This document shows, piece by piece, positions 34,680 through 54,653 of a stretch of DNA of 64,000 bases. The stretch is from assembly GCF_001975705.1 (NCBI RefSeq), contig NZ_CP015091.1:124001-188000 (forward strand). Reading direction: 5' to 3'. Origin of the DNA: Salipiger abyssi. Its GTDB lineage: Bacteria > Pseudomonadota > Alphaproteobacteria > Rhodobacterales > Rhodobacteraceae. The number at the start of each line of letters is the position of its first letter. The first letter of the stretch is position 1. The notes beneath the pieces are model-generated. The model made no database searches. It was not told the DNA's origin and was given only the letters and a program-made list of their open reading frames with translations. The position numbers and the translations under genes were made by a program.

Positions 34680-34697
34680 TCACTATACAATAGTCTA
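34680..34697. promoter_or_regulatory. Putative TetR operator, site A
   Basis: The sequence TCACTATACA-ATA-GTCTA lies between the divergent P450 and TetR-type starts. It overlaps a perfect palindrome GTATAGT-C-ACTATAC (34674-34688) and abuts AATAG-T-CTATT (34689-34699). The same pattern recurs at sites B (36.5 kb) and C (54.6 kb). Confidence 0.7.
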
Positions 34698-34793
34698 TTA
34701 AACTGCCCGATGCCCAGCCCGGGCGGTTTTGGGTTTGCGGTCGGGGCGCCTCCCGCGCCAGTATGCGCGCGACAGGTGCCAAAGAGGATGCAG

Positions 34794-35390
34794 ATGACCG
34801 CATCGACCGGAAAGAAGCCCACGCTCCGGGCCCAGCAGCAGCAGGAAACCCGGCGCAAGCTGGTGGATGCGGCCTTTGAGGTGTTTTCGAAAGAGGGCTA
34901 CCGCGACGCCACCATTCAGGCGATCACGCGCGAGGCGGGGGCCAGCCGCGCGACCTTCTATCTGCATTTCAGCAGCAAGGCCGAGGTGATCGCCGCCGCC
35001 TGGCAGGAGCTTATGGCCACCAAGGTGCTGCCGCGCTTCCGCGCGCTGGACGCGCTCGACCCGGAGTCGGATCGCGAAATGGCCGCCTGGATCGACGACA
35101 TGCTGTCGAACTGGGAAAGCGAGCGGAACTTTGCGATTGCCTCCAACCAGGCGCTTTCGGACGATCCTGAGCTGGCGGCGGTCTGGTTGGACGGGATCAA
35201 ATCGTTTTACGAGGCGGCGCCGCGCTTTGTGTCGCGGATGCGCTGCGGTCCGGAGCAATCCGAATTGCGCTTCCTTCTGCTCTGCTCGCAGCTCGACCGG
35301 ATCGTGTTCCACTGGCTGACCGGCGCGGCAGCGTTCGAGCGTGCCGCACTGGTCGAGGCGCTGACGGTGACCTGGCGCAACGAGTTCTGA
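34794..35390 (+). CDS. TetR-family transcriptional regulator (first of two paralogues)
   Basis: A 198-residue repressor-type protein. I chose ATG 34794, which follows AAGAGG by seven bases; ATG 34788 is too close to that site. The N-terminal helix-turn-helix spans about residues 15-60 (RRKLVDAAFEVFSKEGYRD, REAGASRATFYLHFSSK). The C-terminal ligand domain has RNFAIASNQAL and RFLLLCSQLDRIVFHWL, both closely matched in the second TetR at 54.7-55.4 kb. It lies between a P450 and its probable reductase and faces operator sites A and B, so it most likely controls both. Confidence 0.9.
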   Translation: MTASTGKKPTLRAQQQQETRRKLVDAAFEVFSKEGYRDATIQAITREAGASRATFYLHFSSKAEVIAAAWQELMATKVLPRFRALDALDPESDREMAAWIDDMLSNWESERNFAIASNQALSDDPELAAVWLDGIKSFYEAAPRFVSRMRCGPEQSELRFLLLCSQLDRIVFHWLTGAAAFERAALVEALTVTWRNEF

Positions 35391-35421
35391 CAGCGGGGCG
35401 GCATGGGCCGCGCCCTTGATG

Positions 35422-36390
35422 TCACAGATCAAGCACCAGTTTCTTGCCGCAGGCGCGGGAGACGCAGATCATCATCGTTTCTCCTGCCTCGCGTTCGCTC
35501 TCGGTCAGCACCGAATCGCGGTGCAGCGGCTCGCCCTCCAGCACAACCGTTTCGCAGGTGCCGCAGGTGCCTTCCTGACAGGAGGTCAGCACGTCGATAC
35601 CGGCCTCGGTCACCACGTCGAGAATCGAGCGGTCGGCGGGCACATGCAGCGTGAGGCCCGATGCGGCCAGCACCACCTCGATGGGCTGGTCGGGGATATC
35701 GTCCTCGACCGGTTTGGGGGTGAAATGCTCCACATGCAGGCTGCCTTTCGGCCAGGCGGCGGTCTGCGCCTCGACCGCGCTCAGCAGCGCCTCAGGGCCG
35801 CAGCAATAGATCCGCGTCTCCTCGTCCGGCGTGCCGAGCAGCGTGGCGAGCGGTAGCAGCCCTGCCTCGTCCTGAGGATAAAGCGTGACCCTGTCGCCAT
35901 AGAGCGCCTTGAGCTCGGCGCCATAGGCCATGGTCTCGGCGCTGCGCCCGCCATAGCTCAGCGTCCAGTCCGCGCCGGCCTTTTCCGCCGCCGCCAGCAT
36001 GGGGAGCAGCGGCGTGATCCCGATCCCGCCGGCGACAAAGAGATAGCGCGAGGAGGGCGACAACGCGAAGTGATTGCGCGGGCCGCGCACGTCGACGGGC
36101 TGGCCCACCTCCAGCTTATGCGCCGCGACAGAGCCGCCCCGGCTTTCGGGCTCGCGCAGAATGGCGACGCGCCAGGTCGTCGGGTCGGTGCAATCGCCGA
36201 GCAGCGAATACTGCCGGACGAGCGCGTCGCCGAGCAGCAGGTCGATATGTGCGCCGGGTCGCCAGTCGGGCAGGGCGCTGTGATCGGCATTGCGCAATGT
36301 CAGCTCCACGATGTCCCGCGCGACGATGCGTTTGTCGGTCACGGTCAGGGACAGCGGGGCGTCGGGGCCTGTGTTGAGTCGAACGGTCAT
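35422..36390 (-). CDS. VanB/phthalate-dioxygenase-reductase-type oxidoreductase
   Basis: A 322-residue electron-transfer flavoprotein. From ATG 36390, preceded by GGGAGG, the order is flavin domain (RQYSL near residue 60), NAD(P) domain (GGIGITPLLPML, then CCGPEALL), and a C-terminal plant-type [2Fe-2S] domain with Cys-271, -276, -279 and -309 (SCQEGTCGTC ... ICVSRAC). This order is that of VanB and phthalate dioxygenase reductase, which move electrons from NADH via FMN to an oxygenase. No Rieske oxygenase lies nearby, so the two P450s of this locus are the probable acceptors. It is divergent from an SDR across operator site B. Confidence 0.9.
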   Translation of the reverse strand: MTVRLNTGPDAPLSLTVTDKRIVARDIVELTLRNADHSALPDWRPGAHIDLLLGDALVRQYSLLGDCTDPTTWRVAILREPESRGGSVAAHKLEVGQPVDVRGPRNHFALSPSSRYLFVAGGIGITPLLPMLAAAEKAGADWTLSYGGRSAETMAYGAELKALYGDRVTLYPQDEAGLLPLATLLGTPDEETRIYCCGPEALLSAVEAQTAAWPKGSLHVEHFTPKPVEDDIPDQPIEVVLAASGLTLHVPADRSILDVVTEAGIDVLTSCQEGTCGTCETVVLEGEPLHRDSVLTESEREAGETMMICVSRACGKKLVLDL

Positions 36391-36467
36391 GAATCCTCCC
36401 TTGGGTATCGCAATGCGGCAGAGGGTTTCTGACGAAATCCGCCGCATTTCAAAATACACTTACTTAG

Positions 36468-36485
36468 TCACTAGACATGTGTCTA
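36468..36485. promoter_or_regulatory. Putative TetR operator, site B
   Basis: TCACTAGACA-TGT-GTCTA lies between the reductase and SDR starts. It overlaps the palindrome TAGT-C-ACTA (36465-36473) and the inverted repeat TAGACA-N2-TGTCTA (36472-36485). Aligned with site A, all but about five of 20 positions agree. Confidence 0.72.
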
Positions 36486-36564
36486 CTGATGTGATTATTT
36501 TCATCCTCAGAAATTTCGTGCCGGGACGATGCAAAGGCGTCAGGCACGCTTCGAGGGAGGGGAT

Positions 36565-37377
36565 ATGTCACTCAAGGGCCGTGTCGTCGTCATCACTGGC
36601 GGCGCATCCGGAATCGGTCGCGCATCGGCGAACCTGTTCACCGAGCAGGGCGCGCGCGTCTATCTGTTCGACCGCGACGATGCACGTCTGGGCGAGGTTG
36701 CGGCGGCGGGCGATGCCGTTGCCGGAACCGCGCTCGACATCGCCGACAGCACGGCTGTGACCGCCGCCATCGACGAGATCGCCGGGGCCGAGGGGCGCTT
36801 GGACATTCTGGTCAACGGCGCGGGGATCAATGCGCCCACGGCAGAGGCCAATCAGGCACTGATCGACGCCAATCTTGCAACGCTCGCGGCGGTGAAAGAC
36901 GGCAGGCGGCTCAACCATGAATTCATCGAGACCACCACGGACGCCGATTTTCAGCGGGTGCTGGAGGTCAACCTGTTCAGCCAGTTCTACTGCATTCGTG
37001 CCGCCGTGCCGCATATGAAGGCGAGCGGCGGCGGGGCCATCGTGAACATCTCCAGCGCGGCGGCGCTATCGGGTGTGGTGATGCCGCTCTACTACCCTGC
37101 CTCCAAGGCCGGGGTGCTGGGCATGACCCGCGCGGCGGCGGCGGAGCTGGCCGCTTTCGACATCCGTGTCAACGCCATCGCGCCCGGCGGTGTCGATACG
37201 CCGCTGATGCATCAGCAGCCGCCGGAATTCGTGGATTTCCTCGTCAGCATGCAGCCCATCCGCAGGCTGGCGCAGCCAGAGGAGCTGGCCCAGACGGTGC
37301 TGTTCCTCTCCGACGAGGACCGCTCGGGCTTTTACACCGGGCAGACGATTTCGCCCAATGGCGGGCTTCACATGTGA
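36565..37377 (+). CDS. Short-chain dehydrogenase/reductase (first of two)
   Basis: A 270-residue NAD(P)-dependent oxidoreductase of the classical SDR type. The cofactor motif is TGGASGIGRAS near residues 11-21, NNAG is present as NGAG, the catalytic serine is in VNISSAAAL, and the YxxxK pair is in YYPASKAG. An extended loop of about 30 residues between strands (IDANLATLAAVKDGRRLNHE) is longer than usual. The start is supported by GGGAGGGG. The stop overlaps an in-frame ATG of the next gene's longer reading. The enzyme probably oxidises an alcohol in the pathway fed by the TRAP transporter downstream. Confidence 0.9.
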   Translation: MSLKGRVVVITGGASGIGRASANLFTEQGARVYLFDRDDARLGEVAAAGDAVAGTALDIADSTAVTAAIDEIAGAEGRLDILVNGAGINAPTAEANQALIDANLATLAAVKDGRRLNHEFIETTTDADFQRVLEVNLFSQFYCIRAAVPHMKASGGGAIVNISSAAALSGVVMPLYYPASKAGVLGMTRAAAAELAAFDIRVNAIAPGGVDTPLMHQQPPEFVDFLVSMQPIRRLAQPEELAQTVLFLSDEDRSGFYTGQTISPNGGLHM

Positions 37378-37418
37378 CCGCCTGGGGCGGCTGGAAAAGA
37401 CAGACGAGGGAGGGGACG

Positions 37419-38582
37419 ATGACCGAAGGGTTTGACGCGGCGGCTCTGCGCCGGTTCGAGGACGCCATCCGGCAGGATATCGACGCGGAGCTTTATGACG
37501 GCGCGGTGGTCCGGATCGCGCGCCATGGCGAGCTGGCCTTCGACAAGGCCATTGGTTTCGCCGACCGCGCGGCGGGGCGCGCGGCGGATGCGGGCGACGT
37601 GTTCAAGGTCTATTCGCTGACCAAGGCCTTTACCAACGCGCTGGTCTTGCAGGCCATCGACCGGGGCCAGATCGCGCTGACAACCAGGGTGGTCGATGTG
37701 ATCCCGGAATTCTACGGGCGCGACAAGTTCCGCGCCGCGAAAAAGGACATCATCAATGTCGGGCATCTGCTGACGCATCGCGCCGGGCTGCCCTCGACCC
37801 CCTCGCCGCTGGGTTATGACAAGCTGCACGATTTCGCCGCCGTGGTCGATGCTGTCTGCCAGATGGATGTTGTCGGCACGCCGGGCGAGGCCTTTGCCTA
37901 TTCGCCGACGCTGAACCATGTGCTGATGGCCGAGATCGTGCGCCGGGTGCATGGCGAGGGCCTGTCGCTGCGCGAGATCATGGCAAAAGAGATCTTCGAA
38001 CCGCTCGGTATGGGCTCTTCCGGGCTGGGCGTCATCCCCGCGCATCAGGGGCGGATCGTGCCGGTTGTCTCGGCCATGCCCGAAGCGAGCTGGATCACCG
38101 ACAAGGACACGCTGGACCTGGCAGACACGATGGAGCATCCCGACGCGGAGCTGCCTTGGGTCGGCGCGCTGACCACCACAGGCGACGTGTTCCGCTTTGC
38201 CGAAATGCTGCGCCTCGGCGGGACGCGGGAGGGCCAGCGCATCCTGTCGCCCGCCGTGATCGACAAGGCTGTGACATTGCAGACCGGCGACGCGATCAAC
38301 GACCTGTATCACCATCTCGCGCATGCGCGCGGGTGGGAGACCCCACCGGGCAATATGGGGCTTGGCTTTGCGCTTGGCGGCGCGGGGCTGCGGGTCACGC
38401 AGTTCGGCACGCTGTCCTCGCCCAGGACCTACGGAAACTTCGGCGCGGGTTCGACGCTCTTCTGGATCGACCCGGAACGCCAGATCACCTTCGTCTGCCT
38501 GACCGCAAAGGTGATCGAGGAAAGCCGCAATATCGAGCGCTTCCAGCGCTTGTCCGACATGGTGCTCTCCGCCGCCACATAG
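37419..38582 (+). CDS. Serine hydrolase of the beta-lactamase fold (esterase EstB type)
   Basis: A 387-residue hydrolase of the class-C beta-lactamase superfamily. The nucleophile motif SxxK is VYSLTKA (Ser-66, Lys-69), and the second motif tyrosine is probably in GEAFAYSPTLNHVLM. The YxN form of true beta-lactamases is not met (Tyr-Ser-Pro), pointing to an esterase, lactonase or amidase. There is no signal peptide, so it acts in the cytoplasm. ATG 37419 has GGGAGGGG upstream; the longer reading from 37374 overlaps the SDR stop. It lies in the operon with SDR and TRAP genes, suggesting that the imported compound is an ester or lactone. Confidence 0.85.
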   Translation: MTEGFDAAALRRFEDAIRQDIDAELYDGAVVRIARHGELAFDKAIGFADRAAGRAADAGDVFKVYSLTKAFTNALVLQAIDRGQIALTTRVVDVIPEFYGRDKFRAAKKDIINVGHLLTHRAGLPSTPSPLGYDKLHDFAAVVDAVCQMDVVGTPGEAFAYSPTLNHVLMAEIVRRVHGEGLSLREIMAKEIFEPLGMGSSGLGVIPAHQGRIVPVVSAMPEASWITDKDTLDLADTMEHPDAELPWVGALTTTGDVFRFAEMLRLGGTREGQRILSPAVIDKAVTLQTGDAINDLYHHLAHARGWETPPGNMGLGFALGGAGLRVTQFGTLSSPRTYGNFGAGSTLFWIDPERQITFVCLTAKVIEESRNIERFQRLSDMVLSAAT

Positions 38583-38593
38583 GCGCAGGGCAG

Positions 38594-38621
38594 ACGGCGC
38601 CGCGAAGGAGGGCGGCGCCGT
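38594..38621 (+). terminator. Intercistronic hairpin before TRAP genes
   Basis: ACGGCGCCGC and GCGGCGCCGT form a perfect 10-bp stem with an eight-base purine-rich loop just after the hydrolase stop. No T-run follows, so partial termination or RNA processing is likelier than full termination. Confidence 0.5.
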
Positions 38622-38645
38622 TAGAACACTACAGGGAGGAGGAAC

Positions 38646-38756
38646 ATGTTTCAGAGATGTCTGGGACATGCGGGGCAGCGCTTTGCGCCCGCACTGTCGA
38701 CCGCATGGGGCGGTTCCATTACGCAGGCGGGGCGTGACTGCCCCGGATGGGGCTGA
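38646..38756 (+). CDS. Possible 36-codon small ORF upstream of dctQ
   Basis: A short ORF starts at ATG 38646 directly after a very strong GGGAGGAGG ribosome-binding site and stops two bases before the dctQ-type start at 38758. It encodes MFQRCLGHAGQRFAPAL and continues to a total of 36 residues, with two cysteines and no recognisable motif. The arrangement suggests either a leader whose translation opens the dctQ start, or simply a displaced former start region. I do not recognise a homologue. Confidence 0.35.
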   Translation: MFQRCLGHAGQRFAPALSTAWGGSITQAGRDCPGWG

Positions 38757-38757
38757 G

Positions 38758-39297
38758 ATGGCCGTGTTGTCGACCGTGAAAGCCGGGTTCGACCGGCTGT
38801 CCGCCGGGCTCTACTGGCTTGCGATGCTGGCGCTGCTCGCCATGTCGGTGCATGTGTTCCTCTCCGTGGCCGCACGCAGCGTTCTGGGCCGCGATCTGTC
38901 CGGCACGCTGGAAACCACCGCTTATTACTACATGCCCGTCCTCGCCTTTGCGGCGCTGCCGCATCTCGATGCGCTGGGGGGGCACATCCGCGCGGATCTG
39001 ATCTCTGCCCGGCTGACGGCGCGCGCCGACCGCGTGCTTGAGACGCTGGCTTGCCTTGCCATGTGCGCATTCTTCACCGGGCTTGCCGTCTACGGCACCG
39101 AGGTCGCCTATGACCGCACGATCTCTGCGGAGGTGGCGCGCTCGGCGAACGGGTTCATGCCGGTCTGGCCGGGCCGCTGGGCTCTGGCCGCCGCCGCCGC
39201 GCTGACCGCCGTGCATTACCTGCTGGCCTGTCTCGGCCTCCTCCTAGGGACCGGTGCGGATACCGCCCGGCCGGGCCATGACGGAGAGGCGGCATGA
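38758..39297 (+). CDS. TRAP transporter small permease, DctQ type (first system)
   Basis: A 179-residue inner-membrane protein with four hydrophobic segments, the normal DctQ length and topology. Landmarks are LYWLAMLALLAMSVHVFLSV, then VLGRDLSGTLETTAYYYMPV with the conserved pattern between TM1 and TM2. It starts two bases after a small ORF and overlaps the DctM-type gene by four bases (ATGA). With DctM and DctP it forms a secondary, sodium- or proton-driven uptake system for a carboxylate. A paralogous copy lies at 49.2 kb. Confidence 0.9.
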   Translation: MAVLSTVKAGFDRLSAGLYWLAMLALLAMSVHVFLSVAARSVLGRDLSGTLETTAYYYMPVLAFAALPHLDALGGHIRADLISARLTARADRVLETLACLAMCAFFTGLAVYGTEVAYDRTISAEVARSANGFMPVWPGRWALAAAAALTAVHYLLACLGLLLGTGADTARPGHDGEAA

Positions 39298-40589
39298 GCG
39301 ATCTGATGATCGGTTTCGGCGCGCTCGGGATGTCGCTTGTCCTCATCGTGCTGCGCTTTCCCATCGGTCTGGCCATCGGCGGCACCTCGTTGATCGGGAT
39401 CTATCTCACCGTGGGCCTGCGCCCGATGGTGTCGATCCTGAAAACCGCGCCTTTCGAATTCGTCGCGAGCTGGGAGCTCTCGGCAATCCCGCTCTTCCTC
39501 TTCATGGGGGCGATTGCCTATTCGGCGGGGATGACCCAGGCGCTGTTCGAGGCGGCGCGGATCTGGCTGGCGCGACTGCCGGGCGGGCTGGCGGTGGCGA
39601 CGAATTTCGCCTGCGCCGGGTTTTCGGCGGCCTCGGGCAACAGCCTTGCGACGACCATCGCCATGGGGCGGATCGCGATCCCGGAGATGCGCAAGTACAA
39701 GTATGACATCAGTCTGACGACCGGTGTGGTGGCCGCCTCGGGCACGCTGGGGGCGCTGCTGCCGCCGTCGATCCTGCTGGTGATCTTCGGTATCTTCGCC
39801 GAGCAGAGCATCCCGAAACTCTTCATCGCGGGGATCGTGCCGGCGCTGCTGACAGCGGTGATCTATGCGGCGATGATCGTGCTGCGCTGCACGCTGAACC
39901 CGGCACTGGCGCCGCGCCCGCCGAAAGAGGACGTCTCGGGCGACCGCTTCCGGGTGCTTCTTGCCACATGGCCGCTGATGATGCTGGTGCTGGCAGTGGT
40001 CGGGTCGATCTACACGGGCCTTGCCACCGCGACCGAGGCCGGCGCCATCGGCGTCGTCGCCTCGATGGGCATCGCGGCGGTGAACCGGCGTCTGACCTGG
40101 CTGGTGCTGCGCGAGAGCCTGCGCCAGTCGGTGCATGCGACGGCCTCGGTGTTCTTTATCGCCATCGGCGCGGTTCTGATGACCCGGCTGATGACCTATT
40201 CCGGCGTGCCGCTGTTTCTCGCCGATCTGATGTCGGGCATGGCGCTGGGGCCGGTCGGGCTCGTGCTGATGACGGCGGCGCTTTATCTGGTGCTCGGCTG
40301 TCTGATCGACCCGCTCGGCATGGTGCTGCTGACGCTGCCGGTGCTTCTGCCGATGTTCAAGGCGGTGGGGATCGACCTCATCTGGTTCGGTATCCTCGTG
40401 GTGAAGTTCATCGAGATCGGGCTGATCACCCCGCCCATCGGCCTCAACGTGTTTTCCGTCCGCGCCATGGTGCCGGATGTCGCCATTACCACCGTCTTCC
40501 GGGGCACGCTCTGGTTCCTGGTCTGCGAGCTGATCGTCGTGGGCCTGCTGATCGCCTTTCCCGGCATCGTGACCTTTCTCGTCCGGTGA
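39294..40589 (+). CDS. TRAP transporter large permease, DctM type (first system)
   Basis: A 431-residue inner-membrane protein with about 12 hydrophobic segments. Family landmarks are SWELSAIPLFLFMGAIAYSA, GGLAVATNFACAGFSAASGN, GTLGALLPPSILLVIFGIF and the late LGCLIDPLGMVLLTLPVLLP plus KFIEIGLITPPIGLNVF. These form the two transport halves. It is closely similar to the second DctM at 49.8 kb, so the two TRAP systems arose by duplication. It is coupled to DctQ by ATGA overlap and is followed by DctP. Confidence 0.93.
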   Translation: MSDLMIGFGALGMSLVLIVLRFPIGLAIGGTSLIGIYLTVGLRPMVSILKTAPFEFVASWELSAIPLFLFMGAIAYSAGMTQALFEAARIWLARLPGGLAVATNFACAGFSAASGNSLATTIAMGRIAIPEMRKYKYDISLTTGVVAASGTLGALLPPSILLVIFGIFAEQSIPKLFIAGIVPALLTAVIYAAMIVLRCTLNPALAPRPPKEDVSGDRFRVLLATWPLMMLVLAVVGSIYTGLATATEAGAIGVVASMGIAAVNRRLTWLVLRESLRQSVHATASVFFIAIGAVLMTRLMTYSGVPLFLADLMSGMALGPVGLVLMTAALYLVLGCLIDPLGMVLLTLPVLLPMFKAVGIDLIWFGILVVKFIEIGLITPPIGLNVFSVRAMVPDVAITTVFRGTLWFLVCELIVVGLLIAFPGIVTFLVR

Positions 40590-40633
40590 CAGGCAATTTT
40601 CGACAAACAAAGACGTAAAACAGGGAGAGAGAG

Positions 40634-41740
40634 ATGAAGACAATGATGACGTCCATGGCCGTCGCGTTTGCGGTCGGGAGCCTCGCCGCCCCGGCGCAGG
40701 CGCGCGAGCTGACCTATAATTCCTTCCTTCCGGCGGGGGAGCCGGTCAACAGTGAGGGCCTGGTGCCCTTCTGGGAACGGATCGAGCAGGACACCGGCGG
40801 CGCCTATTCCGGCCGCATGTTCTATGCCGGGCAGATGTTCGGCCCCGCCGAGGTTCTGTCGGGCATCAAGGACGGCGCGATTGACGCGGGCCATGTGCAG
40901 GCAACCGCGGTGCTGGGCGATATGCCCTATGCGGCGGTGATGTCCGAGATGCAGATCTTTTCGCCGGACCCGGTGGTGGCGACCGCCGCGATGGCCGAGA
41001 CCTATCTCGCCGACTGTCCGCAATGCACCGAAGAGCTGGCGGAGAACGGCGTGATGTCGCTGGCGGGCATCGTCACGCAGCCGCTTTACATGGTCTGCGC
41101 GCCCGAGGTCGAGACCACGGAGGATCTCAAGGGGCTGCGCCTGATGACGGTGCTGCGCTCCCAGCAATCCGCCGCCCGGCATTTCGGCATGACGCCGGTC
41201 AGCCTGTCGTTCAACGAGATGATGCCGTCGCTGCAACGGGGGGCCATCGACTGCATCATGGTCATGGACAGCTGGTTCCCGGCATTTCAGTTGCAGGACA
41301 TGGTGTCGTCGGTCATCGCGACGCACAGCTTCGGCGGCGCGCCGATCCCGAATTTCCTGACCATGAGCCGCGAGGTCTGGGACGAGATGGACGCCGAGAC
41401 GCAGGCGGTGTTTGTCGACAACGCCATCGAGCTGTCGGCGGGTCTTGCGGTCTATCACCGGGACGCCGCCGTGCAGGCGCGGCAATACGCGGTGGAGCAC
41501 GGGGTGTCCGAGGTCGATCCCGGCCCGGAATTCGAAGCGCTTTTCGACGCCTTCGTCGCGGAGGAGCCGGAAGACATTCAGCGCAGCTTTGAAGAGTTCG
41601 GTCTGACCGATATCGGCCCGATGATCGAAACCTATCGCGAAAACCTCGCGAAATGGGCGGAGATGATCCCCGAAGACGTGGATGCCGAGACGCTGGCCGC
41701 GATGATCAAGACCGAAATCTACGACCAGACAGGGTTCTGA
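40634..41740 (+). CDS. TRAP transporter solute-binding protein, DctP type (first system)
   Basis: A 368-residue periplasmic protein. The signal peptide ends at APAQA (residues about 20-24). The DctP fold shows YAGQMFGPAEVLSGIKDGAIDAG and a DLKGLRLMTVLRSQQSAARH segment, where the carboxylate-binding Arg of DctP proteins (here in GLRLMT) is expected. The GGGAGAGAGAG ribosome-binding site is strong. A perfect 8-bp hairpin follows the stop. It belongs to the SDR-hydrolase-TRAP operon and is paralogous to the protein at 51.1 kb (shared DCPxC and GAIDCIM/NVDCML segments). Confidence 0.9.
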   Translation: MKTMMTSMAVAFAVGSLAAPAQARELTYNSFLPAGEPVNSEGLVPFWERIEQDTGGAYSGRMFYAGQMFGPAEVLSGIKDGAIDAGHVQATAVLGDMPYAAVMSEMQIFSPDPVVATAAMAETYLADCPQCTEELAENGVMSLAGIVTQPLYMVCAPEVETTEDLKGLRLMTVLRSQQSAARHFGMTPVSLSFNEMMPSLQRGAIDCIMVMDSWFPAFQLQDMVSSVIATHSFGGAPIPNFLTMSREVWDEMDAETQAVFVDNAIELSAGLAVYHRDAAVQARQYAVEHGVSEVDPGPEFEALFDAFVAEEPEDIQRSFEEFGLTDIGPMIETYRENLAKWAEMIPEDVDAETLAAMIKTEIYDQTGF

Positions 41741-41746
41741 GGGTTC

Positions 41747-41886: not shown

Positions 41887-42004
41887 AATCCAATGATTTT
41901 AAATGGATTTATGAAATTTGAGCTCCCGCCGCCGCGCAGGCTTGCAATCGGAAAATCGACTCAATAACTTCCATTTAACGAAATATGATTCCGATAAACG
42001 GAAT
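41887..42004. promoter_or_regulatory. AT-rich control region with two inverted repeats, upstream of second catabolic operon
   Basis: In the 281-base gap after the first TRAP operon, sequence turns AT-rich. AATCCA-N11-TGGATT (41887-41909) and ATTCCG-N5-CGGAAT (41988-42004) are perfect inverted repeats. The second ends 17 bases before the first gene of the second operon and is a good candidate site for the IclR-type regulator at the end of that operon. No TetR-type site is seen here. Confidence 0.5.
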
Positions 42005-42021
42005 AATATGGGGGACAGATT

Positions 42022-46138: not shown

Positions 46139-47317
46139 ATGACGACAACCGACATACCCGCACTGGATTTCGACCCGTTCTCGGTCGAGAGCATTGCCGC
46201 TGGCCCCACTGTCTTCGCCGAGATCCGCGAAATGGCGCCGCTGGTCTGGCTGAAGCCCTACGGGGTCTACGCCACCTGCCGCCACGAGTTCGCGCAGAAG
46301 GCGCTGCGCGACTGGCAGAGCTTTACCTCCACGGTCAAGGCTTTCGGCGAGCGCGAGCACATCCCCAATATCATGGTGCAGGAAGATCCGCCGGACCATT
46401 CCGCGCATCGCAACCCGGTGATGAAGTTCTTCACCCCGGTCGCGCTCAACAACTACCGGGCGTTCTTTGAACAGAGCGCCGCCGACCATGCCGACCGGCT
46501 GGTCGAGACCGGCGCGGTGGACGGGTTCGACGATGTCGCCTCGGGCTATATCCTCCAGGTCTTTCCCGACATTCTCGGGATGAAGGAGATGGATCGCAAG
46601 CAGCTGCTGCTCTTTGGCGATCTGGCCTTCAACTCGACGGTGCCGGTGAACGATCTCTACAAGGCCTGCAAGGCGCGCAGCGGCGACGTTCTGGAGTGGT
46701 TCAACCGCCAGTGCCAGCGCGAGTCCGTCACCCGCGACGGTCTGGCCGAAGAGATCTACCGGCTGGGCGACAGCGGCGAGGTGTCGGAGCAATCGGCGCA
46801 ACTTCTGGTCCGGGCGGTGTTCTCGGGCGGGTTCGACACGACGGTGCTGTCGATCACCAGCGGGCTGAAGCTCTTTGCGGAAAATCCCGATCAGTGGGAT
46901 CTGCTGCGCGAAGAACCGAAGCTCGCCCGCAATGCCTTTGAAGAGGTCATCCGCATGGAGCCACCCTCGCGCTTCCTCGGGCGCGGGGTGGCGGCAGAGA
47001 CCGAGCTGGCCGGGGTGCCGCTAAAGCCGGGCGACAAGTTCGCCACCTTCCTCGGCGGCGTCGGGCGCGACCCGCGCCAGTGGCAGGATCCCGACCGCTT
47101 CGACATCCGCCGCAAGAAGGTGCTGGGCCATATGTCCTTTGGTCACGGGGTGCATTCCTGCCTGGGGCAGGGGCTGGCACGGATCGAGTTCGCCTCGCTG
47201 TTCACCGCCCTGGCGAAACGGGTGAAGCGGATCGAGATCACCGGCGAGATCAAGCGCAACATCAACAATCAGGCCAACGGGTTCCACGTTCTGCCGCTGC
47301 GCCTGCACGCCGGCTGA
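46139..47317 (+). CDS. Cytochrome P450, CYP199-like (second of two)
   Basis: A 392-residue soluble P450. The heme loop is [15 protein letters not shown] with Cys-341, ExxR is Glu-269 to Arg-272, and the I-helix is [10 protein letters not shown] with Asp-233 and Thr-234. Long stretches recall CYP199A enzymes, which oxidise para-substituted benzoates: [36 protein letters not shown] and a C-terminal [11 protein letters not shown]. The Arg-containing SSRGVG loop that I recall as holding the benzoate carboxylate in CYP199A is here FTSTVKAFG, so the substrate may differ. No ferredoxin is encoded beside it; the VanB-type reductase at 35.4 kb may serve it. Confidence 0.9.
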
Positions 47318-48328: not shown

Positions 48329-48350
48329 ACGCGGCGGCCATATATCCAGT

Positions 48351-48374
48351 CTCCCGGCGCTGAGGTGCCGGGAG
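48351..48374 (+). terminator. Intercistronic hairpin
   Basis: CTCCCGGC and GCCGGGAG form a perfect 8-bp stem with an eight-base loop between the SMP-30-like gene and the SDR. No T-run. Confidence 0.45.
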
Positions 48375-48394
48375 CGGTTTCCGGGAAAGACCCA

Positions 48395-49216
48395 ATGCAA
48401 GACAGATTTCGAGTGACGGATCAGAGCGTGATCGTGACCGGCGGCGCAAGCGGCCTTGGCCTGGCGATGGCCGAGGCCATGTGCGAGGGCGGTGCGAAAG
48501 TGGTGCTCATGGATCTCGACGAGGCGGCGCTGACGCGCGAGGTGGCGCGGTTGAGCGGGCTTGGTCAACTGGTTGCCGGGCGCAGGCTCGATGTCGTCGA
48601 CCGCGCGGATCTCGACCGCGCGTTCGATGAGGTTGCAGCGCGTGAGGGTCGGATCGACACGGTATTTGCCAATGCCGGCATCGACCCGGGGCCGGGATTT
48701 GCCGCGCGCGACGCCGACGGGCAGCTGTCGGACGCGAACAGGATCGAACATTATGCGGATGCCCGGTGGGCGCGGGTGATGCGCGTCAATCTCGATGGGG
48801 TGTTCTATACCCTGCGAGCTGCCGCCCGCCACATGCGCCCGCAGGGCGCGGGCAGCATCGTGGTGACAAGCTCGATCTCGGCGCTGCGCCCCTCCGCCGC
48901 GCTGGCCTCGGCCTATGCCGCCTCCAAGGCTGGCGCCGCGCAGCTCATGCGCCATCTGGCGCTGGAGCTTGCGGCGGACGGGGTGCGGGTGAATGCCGTC
49001 GCGCCGGGGCCGTTCGCCACGAATATCGCGGGGGGCGCGATGCAGGATGCCGACAAGCGCGCCGCCTTCGCCGGGATCGTGCCCATGGGCCGCGTGGCGG
49101 AGGTGGAGGAGATCAAGGGGCTGGCGCTGTTTCTCGCCTCGTCCGCCTCCTCCTTTATCACCGGTCAGCAGATCGCCATCGACGGCGGTGCCTCGCTTTC
49201 GGCGGCGCGGCAATGA
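48395..49216 (+). CDS. Short-chain dehydrogenase/reductase (second of two)
   Basis: A 273-residue classical SDR. It has the cofactor motif VTGGASGLGLAMAEAM, NAG in VFANAGIDPG, catalytic Ser in VVTSSISALRP and YxxxK in AYAASKAGAAQL, with a C-terminal FITGQQIAIDGGASLS. ATG 48395 is preceded by GGGAAAG; a longer GTG reading at 48365 lies in the hairpin. It overlaps the DctQ-type gene by 4 bases. It is a distant paralogue of the SDR at 36.6 kb and probably acts on another alcohol of the same pathway. Confidence 0.9.
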   Translation: MQDRFRVTDQSVIVTGGASGLGLAMAEAMCEGGAKVVLMDLDEAALTREVARLSGLGQLVAGRRLDVVDRADLDRAFDEVAAREGRIDTVFANAGIDPGPGFAARDADGQLSDANRIEHYADARWARVMRVNLDGVFYTLRAAARHMRPQGAGSIVVTSSISALRPSAALASAYAASKAGAAQLMRHLALELAADGVRVNAVAPGPFATNIAGGAMQDADKRAAFAGIVPMGRVAEVEEIKGLALFLASSASSFITGQQIAIDGGASLSAARQ

Positions 49217-49755
49217 GCGGGGTGGATGGTCTCATGAGCGGGCTCGACCGCGCCGCCGGGCGGCTTGGCAACGCCCTGTCCTGGCTGGCCTATGCGGCGC
49301 TGATCCTCATGGCGGTGCAGGTCAGCGCCTCGGTCGCGTCGCGCTGGCTGTTCGGGCAGGACATTCCCGTCACCACCGAGCTTGCGACTTATTACTACAT
49401 GGTCGCGCTGACCTATCTGCCGCTGGCTCTGGTCGACCGGCGACACGGACATCTCTTTGCCGAGTTCTTCTATGTGCTGATGCCGACGCGGGTGCAGCGG
49501 CTGATGGATGTGCTGAACGCGGCGCTGGCGCTGGGATTTCTCGGCTTCCTTGGCTGGCGCACCGCGCTTGGCGCCATCGACCGCACCCGGAGCGGCGACG
49601 TGATCTCGACCACTATCGGGCTGTTCCCGGTCTGGCCGGCGCAATGGATCGTGCCGGTCGGGCTTGGCGCGGCGGGGCTCGCCGTGGCGGTTCGGCTTGC
49701 CGAGGCATTCCGGGCGCTGCCCCACGACCCCCATCAGGAAGGAGACCGGCGCTGA
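49213..49755 (+). CDS. TRAP transporter small permease, DctQ type (second system)
   Basis: A 180-residue four-helix membrane protein. ATG 49213 overlaps the SDR stop (ATGA), and the protein shows LSWLAYAALILMAVQVSASVASRWLF and the family segment DIPVTTELATYYYMVALTYL, matching the first DctQ at 38.8 kb. The stop shares one base with the DctM start (TGATG). It forms the membrane part of the second TRAP system together with DctM. Confidence 0.9.
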   Translation: MSGVDGLMSGLDRAAGRLGNALSWLAYAALILMAVQVSASVASRWLFGQDIPVTTELATYYYMVALTYLPLALVDRRHGHLFAEFFYVLMPTRVQRLMDVLNAALALGFLGFLGWRTALGAIDRTRSGDVISTTIGLFPVWPAQWIVPVGLGAAGLAVAVRLAEAFRALPHDPHQEGDRR

Positions 49756-51044
49756 TGTCCGGAATCGCAATCGGCGCGCTGGCGCTTGTCGGCGCAATCG
49801 TTCTGATCGGCCTGCGCGTGCATATCGGGCTGGCGCTCGGCCTGACGGCGATTGTCGGGATCAACGCCATTGTCGGCTCCGCCGCCATGATGGCCGTGGT
49901 CACGAGCGTGCCCTATGAATTCGCCGCAAGCTGGGAGCTCTCGGCGATCCCGATGTTCCTCTTCATGGGCAATCTGGTGTTCCATTCCGGCATGACCGAC
50001 AGTCTGTTCCGCGCGGCGCGGGTCTGGATGTCGCGGCTGCCCGGTGGGCTCGCAATTGCCACCAATTTCGCCTGCGCGGGTTTTGCCGCCGCCTCCGGAT
50101 CGAGCCTCGCCACGACGATCTCCATGGCGCGCATCGCGATCCCGGAAATGCGCCGTCACGGCTACGATCTGGGGCTCGCCACCGGGGTCGTGGCGGCGGC
50201 GGGCACCCTTGGCTCGTTGATCCCGCCGAGCATCCTGCTGGTGCTTTACGGGATCTTCGCCAAGGTCTCGGTCACCAAGCTCTTCGTCGCGGCAATCGTG
50301 CCGGGCGTCCTGACGGCGCTTGCCTATGGCGCGATGATCATGATCCGCTGCAAGCTGCGCCCCGAGCTGACGCCGATGCCGGACGAACGCGCCTCCTGGT
50401 CGGAAAAGCTCGCCGTGCTGCGCGAGATCTGGCCGCTGCCGGTTCTGGTGATCGGGGTGATCGGCTCGATCTATTCCGGCATCGCCACCGCGACCGAAGC
50501 GGGCGCCGTGGGCGCGGTGTTGGCCTTCCTGATCGCGCTGTTGCAGGGGCGTCTGTCGCTGGCGACGTTTCGCACCAGTGTGGTGGAGTCGGTGCAGACC
50601 ACCGCGTCGCTGTTCTTCATCGCGCTCGGCGCAATCCTGATGGTGCGTCTCATGGCGTTCAGCGGTCTGCCTCAGGAGATCGCCGACATCATGAATGCCC
50701 ATGCGGTCGGGCCCTGGCAGCTGCTGGCGATCACGGTGGTGATCTTTCTGATCCTCGGCTGTCTGATCGACCCGATGGGTATGATCCTGCTGACGCTGCC
50801 GGTGTTCCTGCCGATGTTCGAGAGCTCGGGCTTCGACATGGTTTGGTTCGGCATCCTGATCGTGAAATTCGTCGAGATCGGGCTGCTGACACCGCCGCTG
50901 GGGCTGAACGTCTTTGCGGTGAAGTCGCTCGAACGCGACATCCCGCTGGGCGTGATCTTTCGCGGCGTGGGCTGGTTCCTGCTCTGCGAGCTGATCGTCG
51001 TCGCCATCCTCTGCGCCTTTCCGGGCATCACGCAGATTTTGTGA
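49755..51044 (+). CDS. TRAP transporter large permease, DctM type (second system)
   Basis: A 429-residue membrane protein with about 12 hydrophobic segments, closely similar to the first DctM. Shared segments include ASWELSAIP, FLFMG, ATNFACAGF, ASG-SLATTI, and LGCLIDP-GMILLTLP. ATG 49755 shares a base with the DctQ stop, and GAAGGAG lies about ten bases upstream. The duplicate systems differ mainly in the first 60 residues, which may mirror different binding proteins. Confidence 0.93.
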   Translation: MSGIAIGALALVGAIVLIGLRVHIGLALGLTAIVGINAIVGSAAMMAVVTSVPYEFAASWELSAIPMFLFMGNLVFHSGMTDSLFRAARVWMSRLPGGLAIATNFACAGFAAASGSSLATTISMARIAIPEMRRHGYDLGLATGVVAAAGTLGSLIPPSILLVLYGIFAKVSVTKLFVAAIVPGVLTALAYGAMIMIRCKLRPELTPMPDERASWSEKLAVLREIWPLPVLVIGVIGSIYSGIATATEAGAVGAVLAFLIALLQGRLSLATFRTSVVESVQTTASLFFIALGAILMVRLMAFSGLPQEIADIMNAHAVGPWQLLAITVVIFLILGCLIDPMGMILLTLPVFLPMFESSGFDMVWFGILIVKFVEIGLLTPPLGLNVFAVKSLERDIPLGVIFRGVGWFLLCELIVVAILCAFPGITQIL

Positions 51045-51092
51045 GCCGCGCCGCCACAAGACCCAAATCAATCGTCACGAAGGAGGAGACCG

Positions 51093-52205
51093 ATGACCTT
51101 GATGACCAAAACCACCGGGCTTTGCGCCCTTGCCAGCGTTCTTGCGGCGGGGAGCGCCAGCGCCGAACGCATTTCCTTTAACGTCTGGGTGCCGCCCAGC
51201 GAGGTGATCGTGACCGCGCTGTTCGAGCCCTATTTCGAAGCGGTGGAACAGGCGACCGACGGCGAGGCGCGCTTTCAGCTCTTTACCGCCGGGCAGATGC
51301 TCGGGCCGCTCAACACCATGCAGGGGGTGCGCGACGGGGCGGTGTCGGGAGGCATGATCGACGCCTCCTATTACGGCAACGATCTGCCCTATACCGCTAC
51401 CTTCAGCGACCTGATTGCCTTTGCGCCCGATCCGGTCGCCGGGGCGGGGGCCAGCCTTGAGACGTTTTTCCACGATTGCCCGGAATGCCTGGCGGAGATG
51501 GCCGAGAACAATCTCATAGCCCTTGGCGGTTCGGCGACCGCGCCCTACACCATCATGTGCGCCAAGGAGATCGGCAGCCTCGACGATCTGAAAGGGCTGC
51601 GCATTCGCGGCTCCATCGACTTTCACTTCGCGCTGATCAATGCGCTGGGGGCGAACGGGGTCAACATTCCCTTTGGCGACATTGCCCAGTCCTTTGAGCG
51701 CGGCAATGTCGATTGCATGCTGGGCGGGCCGACCTGGATGGAGACCTTCGGGATCACCGAACTGATCGAGACCCGCCTGTCGACGGTCAGCTTCGGCACC
51801 ATTTCCCTGCCCGCGATGATGAGTTTCCAGCGCAGCGCCTGGGAGGGCTGGAGCGAGGAGATCCGGAGCGCAATGATCGCCGCGCTGCCCGAGTACATCG
51901 CCAACGGCACAATCGCGGTGATGGAGAACGACGAAAAGGCCGCCGCCACCGCGCGCGAGGCGGGTATGGCCGAGGTCGATCTCGGCCAGAGCATCGTGGA
52001 TCTGCGCGAGGCGTTTCTGGTGTCGGAACGAGCGCGGGTGATCGAGGCGGGCAAGGCGCGGGGCGCAGAAGATGTCGAAGCGCTGCTAGACCGGTTCCTT
52101 GCCAACTACGCGGAATGGGAGGCCCTGTCAGAGCAGATCGGCGGCGACCGGGCGGCCTTTGCCGACGCTCTGCGCGCGCGGGTCTATGACGACCTGCCCA
52201 TGTGA
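51093..52205 (+). CDS. TRAP transporter solute-binding protein, DctP type (second system)
   Basis: A 370-residue periplasmic protein with a signal peptide ending at SASAE (residues about 22-26). The DctP fold shows FTAGQMLGPLNTMQGVRDGAVSG and LDDLKGLRIRGSIDFHF, with the carboxylate-binding Arg expected in GLRIRG. It differs from the first DctP mainly around the ligand pocket (MTVLRSQQSA there, IRGSIDFHFA here), so the ligands may not be identical. A strong hairpin follows, then the convergent IclR-type gene. Confidence 0.9.
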   Translation: MTLMTKTTGLCALASVLAAGSASAERISFNVWVPPSEVIVTALFEPYFEAVEQATDGEARFQLFTAGQMLGPLNTMQGVRDGAVSGGMIDASYYGNDLPYTATFSDLIAFAPDPVAGAGASLETFFHDCPECLAEMAENNLIALGGSATAPYTIMCAKEIGSLDDLKGLRIRGSIDFHFALINALGANGVNIPFGDIAQSFERGNVDCMLGGPTWMETFGITELIETRLSTVSFGTISLPAMMSFQRSAWEGWSEEIRSAMIAALPEYIANGTIAVMENDEKAAATAREAGMAEVDLGQSIVDLREAFLVSERARVIEAGKARGAEDVEALLDRFLANYAEWEALSEQIGGDRAAFADALRARVYDDLPM

Positions 52206-52217
52206 CCAGCCTTTCCA

Positions 52218-52239
52218 GGCGGGCCGGAGACGGCCCGCC
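52218..52239 (+). terminator. Terminator hairpin between second TRAP operon and IclR gene
   Basis: GGCGGGCC and GGCCCGCC form a perfect 8-bp stem with a six-base loop, 13 bases after the DctP stop, between convergent genes. It lacks a T-run but the position is right for an operon end. Confidence 0.6.
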
Positions 52240-52283
52240 GACCGTTAGGGCAGCCTGACCGGGCGGTGACGCCCTGTGTTGGC

Positions 52284-53072
52284 CTATCTCGTGCCGAGAT
52301 GGCCGAGTGCCTTGCTCAGCGCTTGCGCCTGCGGCAGCAACACGCCGAGAATTCGGTCCTCTGTCTCCTGCGAAAATCGGATCTCCGGGACCGTCACGCA
52401 GAGCGCGCCGATGGTGTCGCCGCTCTTGTCGAATACCGGCGCGCCGATCCCGACGGCGCCCTCGATGGTCTGGCCGCGCGACAGCGCATAGCCCTGCGCC
52501 GCGAACACCTCCATTTGATGGAGATAGACGTCCTTCGAAGGCAGCCTTGCGCCGGTCTGCGGAAAGCTGTCGCTCTCGCGACTGTCGTAAAGCGCCTCCT
52601 GTTCCGCGCGCGGAAGGAAGGCCACGACCGACTGTCCCGTGGCGCCCCAGAGCGGACTGCGGGTGCTGAAAAGCTCGGTGCGGTATTGCAGCGGGTTCGC
52701 GGAGTTGCAGGCACCGACCACGGTGATCTGCCCCCGGGCACGCAGATAGCGCACGATGACACAGGTCTCGTTGGCGGTCTCGGCGACGCGCTCCATAAAC
52801 GGCTGCGCGATCTCTGCCAGCCCGGTCCTGCCGGCGACGAGCGACGCGATGCGCAGAAATTCGGGGCCGATGCGATAGCGCTTGTGATCGGCGTCGAGAG
52901 TGATGATGTCATCCTCGGCCAGCAGGTGCAGCAGCCGGTGCGAGGTGCTGGGCGCGAGGCCGGTGATGGCGGAAAGTTCCTTGATGGACAGATCGCCATC
53001 CGCCTCGGCAAACACTTGCAGGATGCGGATGGCCCGGGCCACGGTGCCGCTGCGCGTGCTGTCTTCACCCAT
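52284..53072 (-). CDS. IclR-family transcriptional regulator
   Basis: A 262-residue regulator. The N-terminal winged helix (VARAIRILQVFAEADGDLSI, ITGLAPSTSHRLLHLLAEDD) and the C-terminal IclR effector domain (SPLWGATGQSVVAFLP, YALSRGQTIEGAVGIGAPVFD, IGALCVTVPEIRF) are both clear. IclR-type proteins often sense aromatic acids or their ring-cleavage products. It sits convergent with the 42-52 kb operon and probably regulates it from the repeats near 41.9-42.0 kb, which are about 10 kb from this gene. That distance makes the assignment inference. Confidence 0.9.
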   Translation of the reverse strand: MGEDSTRSGTVARAIRILQVFAEADGDLSIKELSAITGLAPSTSHRLLHLLAEDDIITLDADHKRYRIGPEFLRIASLVAGRTGLAEIAQPFMERVAETANETCVIVRYLRARGQITVVGACNSANPLQYRTELFSTRSPLWGATGQSVVAFLPRAEQEALYDSRESDSFPQTGARLPSKDVYLHQMEVFAAQGYALSRGQTIEGAVGIGAPVFDKSGDTIGALCVTVPEIRFSQETEDRILGVLLPQAQALSKALGHLGTR

Positions 53073-53190
53073 TCCGTCGGGAACCCGTTCTTGTTGCTGC
53101 GGTCCGCGCGCCGAAGCCAGCGCGCCGCCTTCCCTAGCATGAGTGAGACGGCGTTGGGTATCCCCTCACGAGCGGCGTGTCACGGGCAGA

Positions 53191-53232
53191 CCTCTCCAGC
53201 GATGGCGGCAGGATGCGCCACCGCCGGAGAGG
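53191..53232 (-). terminator. Hairpin after outer-membrane protein gene
   Basis: CCTCTCC (53191-53197) pairs with GGAGAGG (53226-53232), and GGCGG (53204-53208) with CCGCC (53221-53225), giving an interrupted 12-bp stem 13 bases beyond the stop of the minus-strand gene. No T-run. Confidence 0.4.
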
Positions 53233-53244
53233 CTGGACAAGCTC

Positions 53245-54213
53245 TCAGAACTTGAAGCCCATGCTCACGGTCAGGCCTTCGGATTGGGGAATATACTCCC
53301 CCTCGACCATCCAGAGATACTTGGCCTTGATGAAGGCGGGCCGGTTGGCGACGGTGAAACTGTATTGCGCGATCAGCCCGAGATTCATCGCACTGCCGCG
53401 CAGACCGTTGCTGTTTCCGTCGATCTTGTCGTCGGCGATCTGGGTCCAGCCTGTGCCCGCCACACCGAACTGCCAGGGCCCGACGATCTCGGAGGCGCTG
53501 AAATCAAGCGAAACGGTGTTGCCGGTGTTGTAATCCGTGTCACCGTTTTCGGTGTAGTGGTTGTAGAAAAGCCGCGCGCTCACCTGCGTGGCCCGGCCCG
53601 GCCCGGCGCCGAAGATCGAGGGCGCGGTATGGGTGACGGCCATGGTCGGCGAGATGGTGAAGAAGTTCGACCCGACATTGACGGGATCGCTGGAGCTGTA
53701 TTCCCCGGTCGGCCAGGTCACCCCGAGGCCGAGCATGAAGGCGGTGCCGTAGGGGATCGGGAACGCCCGGTCGCGGGGCTGGTCCGCAAAGGCCTTGCTG
53801 GGGCTGAATTTGCTCCACAGCAGCAGGTCCGTATAGATGTCCATCGCGCCTTCCGAGCAGGACTCGGGCGCCGGGCCTGCGCTATAGCAGACGCGCTGCT
53901 TCCCGGCACCGAAGGACGAGGCGAGCTGGCCGCCGAACAGCGTCTGCGGATAGACGAACAACGCACCCACCGCACCGAAGCCCACATGGCCGTCGCCCCG
54001 CACATCGTCGCCGCCGCCAAGCCGGTAGCGGCTGAGGTCGACGCCGCCGCCCACGAGAAACGGATAGAGCCCGGGCTGGGGAAGCAGCGCCTGGTTGAGA
54101 TCGGTGCCGCCGATCGGCCCGGCGGGCGCGGTGCCTTCAAGGGCCTGCGCGGTGCCGGTCGCCGCGAATAGGATAATGGCCGCCTGGGCGAGCCGCTTGC
54201 TAAGTCTGATCAC
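53245..54213 (-). CDS. Outer-membrane protein of the MetA-pathway (Phenol_MetA_deg / SphA) type
   Basis: A 322-residue exported beta-barrel protein. A signal peptide ends near AQALEG (residues about 22-28). The sequence alternates hydrophobic and polar residues, is rich in Gly, Tyr and aromatic turns (FNNHYTENGDTDYN-like, SVSMGFKF), and ends in Phe, as outer-membrane barrel proteins do. The FGAVGALFVYPQTLFGG and PYGTAFMLGLGVTWPTGEYS segments match the MetA-pathway phenol-degradation family, found in catabolic clusters for aromatics and terpenoids. It likely lets the hydrophobic substrate through the outer membrane. Operator site C lies 423 bases upstream. Confidence 0.8.
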   Translation of the reverse strand: MIRLSKRLAQAAIILFAATGTAQALEGTAPAGPIGGTDLNQALLPQPGLYPFLVGGGVDLSRYRLGGGDDVRGDGHVGFGAVGALFVYPQTLFGGQLASSFGAGKQRVCYSAGPAPESCSEGAMDIYTDLLLWSKFSPSKAFADQPRDRAFPIPYGTAFMLGLGVTWPTGEYSSSDPVNVGSNFFTISPTMAVTHTAPSIFGAGPGRATQVSARLFYNHYTENGDTDYNTGNTVSLDFSASEIVGPWQFGVAGTGWTQIADDKIDGNSNGLRGSAMNLGLIAQYSFTVANRPAFIKAKYLWMVEGEYIPQSEGLTVSMGFKF

Positions 54214-54521
54214 GATGGTTTTCCCCCTCTGTTGTGGATGACTGCGCTAGGCGCCCCGCGGTGACCCTGAGTTTGCAGGCATGCGGGGACGTGGCGCATC
54301 CCGGCTGCGGGATACGCTGAGACGTCAGAGACGTGCGTTGATGTCCGATGCGTGCCGGCAGTACCGGGCACACATGCGTCAGATCCATCCGCGCTCGGTC
54401 AGGAGGCGCGGACGGGACGGTCGGAAAGACTTGGCGGTAAGTGTGGCTCTAGATCGGAAGCCTGCACCTTGCGTGACGCGTGATCCGGCTGGACGCGCGC
54501 GTGATGACACACAAAGGCTGT

Positions 54522-54540
54522 AAGCCCTGCGGGCTTTTAT
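54522..54540 (+). terminator. Possible intrinsic terminator on the plus strand
   Basis: AAGCCC-TGC-GGGCTT is a tight 6-bp stem with a three-base loop, and the stem runs into TTTTAT on the plus strand. No clear plus-strand gene precedes it. Confidence 0.45.
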
Positions 54541-54635
54541 AGTGGTTCATTGTCCCTCCTCCCCGCAGCATCGCTGCGACCGGCTGACCTTGTGGCCACT
54601 CAATTGACACCGGTATAGCGAAATTGCCAAATAAC

Positions 54636-54653
54636 TAGATTCGTGTCTAGTGA
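54636..54653. promoter_or_regulatory. Putative TetR operator, site C
   Basis: Read on the minus strand, this is TCACTAGACA-CGA-ATCTA, matching site B at 14 of 15 defined positions and site A at 13 of 15. It lies 73 bases from the stop of the second TetR gene and upstream of the outer-membrane protein gene, both on the minus strand. Confidence 0.68.

Follow-up and report, generated by a model that had tools for sequence, protein, structure and literature searches.

A 22-bp pseudo-palindrome as candidate shared operator of two paralogous TetR-family regulators in a cytochrome P450 locus of Salipiger abyssi

Described regulators that come closest to the system treated here include KstR, a TetR-family repressor of cholesterol catabolism in M. 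tuberculosis and relatives, and EthR, whose operator, in the part of the source available, is described as larger, with multiple copies, and not as a classical spaced palindrome (PMC4482099). In addition, PheR of Sphingobium, a repressor of the IclR family, is described in an excerpt as coupling outer-membrane functions (uptake) to catabolism (PMC13273656). Here we analyzed a 64,000-nucleotide stretch of the Salipiger abyssi contig NZ_CP015091.1 (positions 124,001 to 188,000 of the forward strand; hereafter the window), in which a 22 kb catabolic locus carries two TetR-family regulators, TetR1 and TetR2, at its ends and three copies, termed sites A, B and C, of one palindromic site. The sites accompany genes for a cytochrome P450 (P450a), a reductase, a short-chain dehydrogenase/reductase (SDR), an esterase, a TRAP transporter (TRAP1) and an outer-membrane protein. 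KstR shows only 17-18% identity, we take its operator letters to be different from those of the window sites, and the window differs further in that a single site type is accompanied by two regulators that are paralogues.

The first-pass annotation of the window had picked out by eye an 18-mer, TCACTAKACA-N3-RTCTA, at 34680-34697 (+), 36468-36485 (+) and 54636-54653 (-), and had placed all three copies between genes. Both statements held: the three are the exact matches in the window (0 in 100 dinucleotide shuffles), no further exact copy exists in the whole 5,259,072-base genome, and sites A, B and C are intergenic in our gene map. At one mismatch, the single genome match was the opposite strand of site B. 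The motif is better described as a 22-bp pseudo-palindrome, TCACTAGACA-NN-TGTCTAGTGA, with a 2-nt centre and one such unit at each site (Table 1), so that the two overlapping half-site pairs proposed for each site had to be given up; as for the overlapping palindromes reported at A and B, a weak two-unit overlap was found at A, whereas B has no second copy. Searched with up to three mismatches, the 22-mer recovered sites B and C alone from the 5.26 Mb genome (reversed control, 0), as did its 14-base core with up to two mismatches; at three mismatches, the core recovered site A and 25 more places besides B and C (28 in total). These searches of the whole genome brought up no scatter of equal matches, the outcome named in advance as fatal to the proposal.

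The same site was found before the same enzymes elsewhere. In tblastn searches, the window genes matched six loci carrying the enzyme module (SDR 46-56%, esterase 46-59%, P450a 48-51%, reductase 52-60%), namely two of Streptomyces (L015, L017), one of Georgenia (L053), two Rhodococcus plasmids (L094, L095) and a Streptomyces plasmid (L096), and in each of them an operator lies before the SDR gene with a TetR gene alongside. A second operator in L015, some 0.7-1.5 kb ahead of genes for a reductase and a P450b homologue, may instead serve the reading frame that adjoins it. Two operators also stand on one 74-kb contig of Xanthobacter: one lies ~490 bp upstream of a homologue (47%) of the outer-membrane protein, with a divergent thiolase-domain gene on the other side, and the other, with a perfect core, ~435 bp upstream of a run of GMC (40%), esterase (44%) and P450-like (24%) genes. 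No site at ≤7 mismatches was found in the plasmid loci of Cupriavidus (L097), Roseomonas (L098, which has the outer-membrane homologue) and Embleya (L099), nor in L011 and L020, and L014 had one far from its TetR gene. When 394 genomes from the family to which the Streptomyces genome G576 belongs were searched with P450a, G576 itself was the only one with a match, four candidates being scored per genome.

We also searched for the operator without the window motif. A de novo gapped-palindrome search of eight foreign intergenic regions, six picked by gene content and two (Xanthobacter) reached through the motif, returned CTAGAC-N4-GTCTAG first, present in 6/8 regions at ≤1 mismatch and in 8/8 at ≤2 including its one-base shift. 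With a matrix built from ten sites of Xanthobacter, Streptomyces, Georgenia and Rhodococcus only, the five highest-scoring among 63,979 window positions were C (29.8), B (27.2), A (21.9) and two secondary copies, C2 (16.0) and A2 (13.0), the best of 20 simulated windows reaching 12.3; an Actinobacteria-only matrix put the same five sites on top. Conversely, when only A, B and C went into the matrix, the module operator came out on top in 7/7 of the loci with the module. Matrix scoring of the other three-mismatch genome places covered a subset of them, and one position, C5:244389 (15.6), lies in an integrase-like region according to translations read by eye and was taken as background; since it scores nearly as high as C2, neither C2 nor A2 is convincing by itself.

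The combined TetR alignment in genome_contigs was limited to the best 80 of 389 relatives, with Xanthobacter at the top and the remainder mainly from Actinobacteria and Caulobacter. A palindrome with ≤6/20 mismatches occurred within 300 bp upstream of the TetR match in 25/80 loci, compared with 2/1600 same-locus control windows and 3/2400 permuted-palindrome trials, and at ≤7 mismatches in 38/80 loci, compared with 9/1600 and 52/2400. When one TetR was kept per 60% cluster, 5/19 had a site at ≤7 mismatches, whereas 200 permuted motifs averaged 0.34 and reached 3 at most. All seven Caulobacter loci (L022, L025, L027, L028, L038, L049, L065) carry TCAGACGACA-NN-TGTCGTGTCA before TetR genes that adjoin a P450 gene (27-28% to P450a), and the variant reads as a second, clade-specific set of operator letters of related TetRs. 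In many operators of Rhodococcus and other actinobacteria, of the TCACTGAC-N4-TGTCTAGTGA type (L024, L041, L046, L048, L059, L068 and others; ~30-140 bp before the TetR match), the left arm lacks one base relative to the right, which looks like a one-base displacement of the half-sites.

The paralogy claimed for TetR1 and TetR2 was confirmed by 80/187 identical residues (43%) and by their being the sole two matches in their own genome at E≤1e-15 (10 of 41 candidates scored). Both have the TetR_N helix-turn-helix PF00440 above the cut-off (7.5e-15 and 2.1e-14), and identity is 34/62 in the DNA-binding part as against 46/127 in the ligand part. Their recognition helix, SRATFYLHF, is identical and recurs in the TetRs of L010, L015, L017 and L053, in agreement with the earlier suggestion of two regulators of similar DNA-reading type; their N-terminal arms are unequal in length. 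In a tree of 101 TetRs, for which a long-branch warning was given (L010 among the affected), the Xanthobacter protein was placed as sister (98/84) to the 12 members of the TetR2 group, and both joined the four members of the TetR1 group in a single clade (100/99). The TetR1 model has an all-helical TetR fold (mean predicted local distance difference test score, pLDDT, 92), the structure matches listed for it were TetR-type regulators spanning residues 11-198, and the nearest solved structures, within ~1 Z unit, were 3bjb (an uncharacterised Rhodococcus TetR), KstR and EthR. Database relatives of the TetR proteins reach 61-66% identity. Searching 292 genomes of the order with TetR1 gave one distant match (33%) outside its own genome and nothing else, and a TetR1+TetR2 profile gave nothing outside its own genome among 394 genomes of the family, with at most 10 and 7 candidates scored per genome, respectively; TetR1 alone had no matches in genome_contigs, nor TetR2 in plasmids. 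Note that a first guess of an AlkX/AlkU alkane-regulator identity, made from Dietzia and Rhodococcus matches, was dropped without a proper test.

Since even very distantly related bacteria carry this site in front of the corresponding enzyme genes, the sites are most likely bound by the two sister TetRs. We are fairly confident of the best explanation, namely that they are operators of a TetR-family repressor lineage, acting by repression with ligand release, and that both TetRs share them; binding, repression, ligand release and site sharing are the steps that we infer. A TetR dimer would bind the 22-bp pseudo-palindrome, which at A and B overlaps promoter-like sequence, and block RNA polymerase until a ligand, either the substrate or a pathway intermediate, frees the dimer and lifts repression. 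Consistent with this, a promoter-like TTAATA-17-TATACT on the P450 (-) strand overlaps site A (34701-34673; one match, shuffles averaging 0.1), and the -35-like TAGACA of a promoter-like TAGACA-18-TATTTT lies inside site B (+ strand, 36472-36501; one match, shuffles averaging 0.2). Site A would control P450a and, by autoregulation, tetR1, site B the SDR-esterase-TRAP1 genes as well as the reductase gene, and site C the outer-membrane protein gene; we conclude that the TetR regulon is real and compact. TetR1 and TetR2 would derive from an old duplication after which the recognition helix was kept and the ligand domains drifted apart. Both paralogues probably read the same sites, given their identical recognition helices and the similar site quality near each, and binding of every site by both is a probable prediction. 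With A2 and C2 as weaker neighbours, sites A and C may each accommodate two dimers.

A number of observations weigh against this explanation. The 18-mer has two additional genome places at two mismatches, and its reversed pattern, at up to two mismatches, likewise gave six matches; as the control equals the real count, the two-mismatch matches are background. At three mismatches, the reversed 14-base core was found 242 times, far more often than the real one, which may be put down to the scarcity of CTAG. At ≤2 mismatches, the core was rarer than its reversed control in all of seven foreign genomes except Georgenia; G576 (7.9 Mb) has two places, both in the module (reversed control 6), G577 two, one in the module (reversed control 9), and G576 alone of the seven has every core place in the module. 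The sites of the foreign matrix were picked by likeness to the window motif, so that of the motif tests only the de novo search escapes such picking, and A2 barely exceeds the null maximum. No match at ≤7 mismatches was found at 42/80 TetR loci, of the 19 clusters at 60% identity just five have one at ≤7 and two at ≤6, and there are few independent lineages. With 7 mismatches, the site of L096 is a weak one, the helix is altered in the plasmid-encoded TetRs of L094 (SRANIYLHF) and L096 (SRANLYLYF), and the Xanthobacter operator on the outer-membrane side could serve either the outer-membrane or the thiolase-domain gene. Site C lies 72 bp beyond the TetR2 stop codon and 418 bp upstream of the start of its presumed target gene, and a search for a sigma-70-like promoter there found none. 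Furthermore, TetR1 has a palindromic operator in its own, divergent promoter, whereas no operator was found in the 300 bp before TetR2 (best matrix score 2.5) or directly upstream of the Xanthobacter and Georgenia TetRs, and autoregulation is therefore not general.

Instead of sharing the sites, the two regulators might divide the labour, TetR1 alone acting at A and B and TetR2 alone at C, with the common sequence a remnant of duplication. We regard this as possible but rather unlikely. TetR1 adjoins site A and TetR2 site C, the differing N-terminal arms would suit distinct roles, and the Xanthobacter sister of the TetR2 group is encoded on the contig with the operator-outer-membrane gene arrangement. 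However, the recognition helices are identical, B and C are about equally near the foreign consensus by matrix score, and on that same Xanthobacter contig, where one TetR relative was found, operators precede both the outer-membrane gene and the GMC-esterase-P450 run. Doubtful, too, is a scheme in which A/A2 and C/C2 are composite sites that hold TetR1 and TetR2 side by side or as mixed dimers under two-signal (AND) control. The second copies at 54600 and 34661 do rank fourth and fifth with the foreign matrix, their centres lie 32 bp (~three helical turns) and 19 bp from those of the main sites, and tandem copies 22 bp apart recur in the Rhodococcus plasmid L094, but A2 has the marginal score given above and 8/20 mismatches, the strongest palindrome, site B, stands without a second copy, and there is no sign of mixed dimers.

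Ownership of the sites by the IclR-family regulator of the locus is very improbable. Its gene lies near site C, and one published IclR consensus type, TGRAACA-N1-2-TGTTYCA, in the available part of the source, shares the ACA-NN-TGT core (PMC13273656); on the other hand, no relative of it was detected (tblastn, E≤1e-4) in 86 loci, three of which overlap others and which include all operator-bearing module loci, whereas in every case a TetR shares the cluster or contig. For lack of a homologue in these loci, IclR was rejected as reader of A, B and C. A separate palindrome could serve it instead, and here the proposed regulon finds its limit: it is supported for P450a, the reductase, SDR-esterase-TRAP1 and outer-membrane entry and probably does not extend to the half with aldehyde dehydrogenase (ALDH), GMC, CYP199 and TRAP2. 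On the + strand, the genes from SDR1 to DctP1 are separated by -4, 85, -4 and 44 bp, followed by 281 bp, after which a tight M29-like-ALDH-GMC-P450b-SGL-SDR2-TRAP2 run begins. This sole long gap of the + strand run contains no operator (best score 4.8) and holds the different palindrome at 41983-42009, perhaps the operator of the IclR gene; its inner 17-mer occurs exactly once in the window, where looser matches are at chance level, and at ≤1 mismatch at one other place in the genome (reversed control 0). The missing operator, the different palindrome and the nearby IclR gene together indicate that the second half is probably under separate control from its own promoter, which would split the locus into two regulatory blocks, the TetR sites governing the first one and the outer-membrane gene. 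Finally, chance or a dispersed repeat such as mobile-element ends can hardly account for the sites: transposon-like debris apparently flanks the locus (~56.3-57.4 kb, by eye), but no further exact copies exist in the genome and the same site precedes the same genes in other phyla.

Returning to operators shared by both TetRs, we tentatively suggest that two diverged sensors with one kept DNA specificity make outer-membrane transport, first oxidation and inner-membrane uptake answer a combination of two ligands, for example the outside substrate and the first intermediate, and that operator, repressor and P450 module were passed on jointly between Actinobacteria and Proteobacteria as a single transferable cassette with its own regulation.

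The features of the locus are listed in Table 1. The reductase is presumably of the phthalate-dioxygenase-reductase type, and its true start may lie further in than 36459, given only 8 bp to site B. A 53-aa reading frame in the interval that separates site C from the outer-membrane gene was rejected as a gene for want of support. The locus seemingly lies on a contig of ~250 kb (C3; 250,394), and no TetR1 relative at E≤1e-15 was found in three genomes of the same genus, which together suggest an acquired island or plasmid. Read by eye, the DNA next to TetR2 (~56270-57340) looks like a truncated piece of a thiolase gene with helix-turn-helix remains of transposase type behind it, and an apparently similar thiolase/transposase-like stretch lies behind the operator in Xanthobacter (L116, after 18250).

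Table 1. Sites and genes of the Salipiger abyssi locus (window coordinates; mismatches are to the palindrome).
Feature	Position	Strand	Remarks
Site A2	34661..34682	.	Weak copy AAATTATACGTAAGTATAGTCA overlapping site A; 8/20 mismatches; borderline
Site A	34680..34701	.	TCACTATACAATAGTCTATTAA; 4/20 mismatches; between divergent P450a and TetR1
Site B	36468..36489	.	Near-perfect TCACTAGACATGTGTCTACTGA; 1/20 mismatch; between divergent reductase and SDR1
Different palindrome	41983..42009	.	ATATGATTCCG-N5-CGGAATAATAT; near-perfect 11+5+11; head of M29-like-ALDH-GMC-P450b-SGL-SDR2-TRAP2 run
Site C2	54600..54621	.	Weaker copy TCAATTGACACCGGTATAGCGA; 5/20 mismatches; centre 32 bp from site C
Site C	54632..54653	.	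TAACTAGATTCGTGTCTAGTGA; 3/20 mismatches; between TetR2 and outer-membrane protein gene
P450a, cytochrome P450	33338..34597	-	PF00067; PDB 7x53 at 1e-161; start inferred from ribosome-binding-site-like stretch
TetR1, 198 aa	34794..35390	+	PF00440; 198-aa database protein; start inferred from homologues
FAD/NAD + 2Fe-2S reductase	35422..36459	-	PF00111, PF00175
SDR1	36565..37377	+	PF13561; first gene behind site B; start inferred
Beta-lactamase-fold esterase	37374..38582	+	PF00144; LipE/AcmB-like match below cut-off
TRAP transporter 1 (DctQ, DctM, DctP)	38668..41740	+	PF04290, PF06808, PF03480; last of site-B gene run
P450b	46139-47317	+ strand run	CYP199-like, including CYP199A4; best 2.1e-84 to 9g9q
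IclR-family regulator	52284..53072	-	PF01614, PF09339; third regulator of locus
Outer-membrane protein, Phenol_MetA_deg family	53245..54213	-	PF13557 (4e-26); Xanthobacter homologue 47%, operator upstream there
TetR2, paralogue of TetR1	54726..55421	-	PF00440; database protein 226 aa

As for the pathway, both Rhodococcus plasmid loci encode a Rieske oxygenase with a PDR/VanB reductase (L094 3233-4450 and 10137-12228; L095 6704-8795), and one of these clusters adds a glutathione-independent formaldehyde dehydrogenase. CYP199A4 is a para-methoxybenzoate demethylase. Since P450b is near CYP199A4 and a formaldehyde dehydrogenase is present in one Rhodococcus cluster, our guess is that the pathway could be an O-demethylation of a methoxylated compound.

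With regard to significance, a motif noticed by eye becomes a testable regulon in which the operator, both candidate repressors and the target genes are named. Across several phyla, the P450-SDR-esterase-reductase module is marked by this one operator, which predicts genes acting together, and the regulon gives a basis for a ligand screen asking which compound frees which TetR. The locus is, moreover, a natural example of a paralogous repressor pair with possibly one common site. Among the papers listed for the exact half-site strings, one dealt with bacterial gene control, and in the part of it available the string lay in a primer (PMC10486305); likewise, among the bacterial papers listed for TGTCTAG/CTAGACA with TetR, the strings in the accessible part of PMC9430170 were primers. 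Searches for two TetRs at the same operator and for the P450/TetR/formaldehyde dehydrogenase combination found no description, nor did text searches for this operator; as such searches reach part of the literature only, we make no claim to the first description of this operator.

Compared with known systems, the EthR/EthA-linked regulators are paired with a Baeyer-Villiger/flavin-containing monooxygenase (FMO), whereas TetR1 is divergent from a P450 gene, and the scan of window genes in the locus turned up no FMO family member. PheR resembles the window system in that a repressor links outer-membrane functions and catabolism, and differs in protein family and operator. Close counterparts are also the P450-SDR-serine hydrolase-reductase clusters of Rhodococcus, Streptomyces and Georgenia, which have the same enzymes, the operator before the SDR gene and a TetR alongside. 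We know of no experimental work on these six clusters. They have one related TetR each, as opposed to two in the window, and their neighbours are different, with a Rieske oxygenase and a formaldehyde dehydrogenase in Rhodococcus. Neither the protein family nor the style of operator nor the logic of the regulon is unfamiliar, and the locus is biologically a good example of a familiar mechanism, not of a new one; what appears new to us is this operator with its tie to the P450-SDR-esterase-reductase module over several phyla, together with two paralogous repressors beside one site type within one locus.

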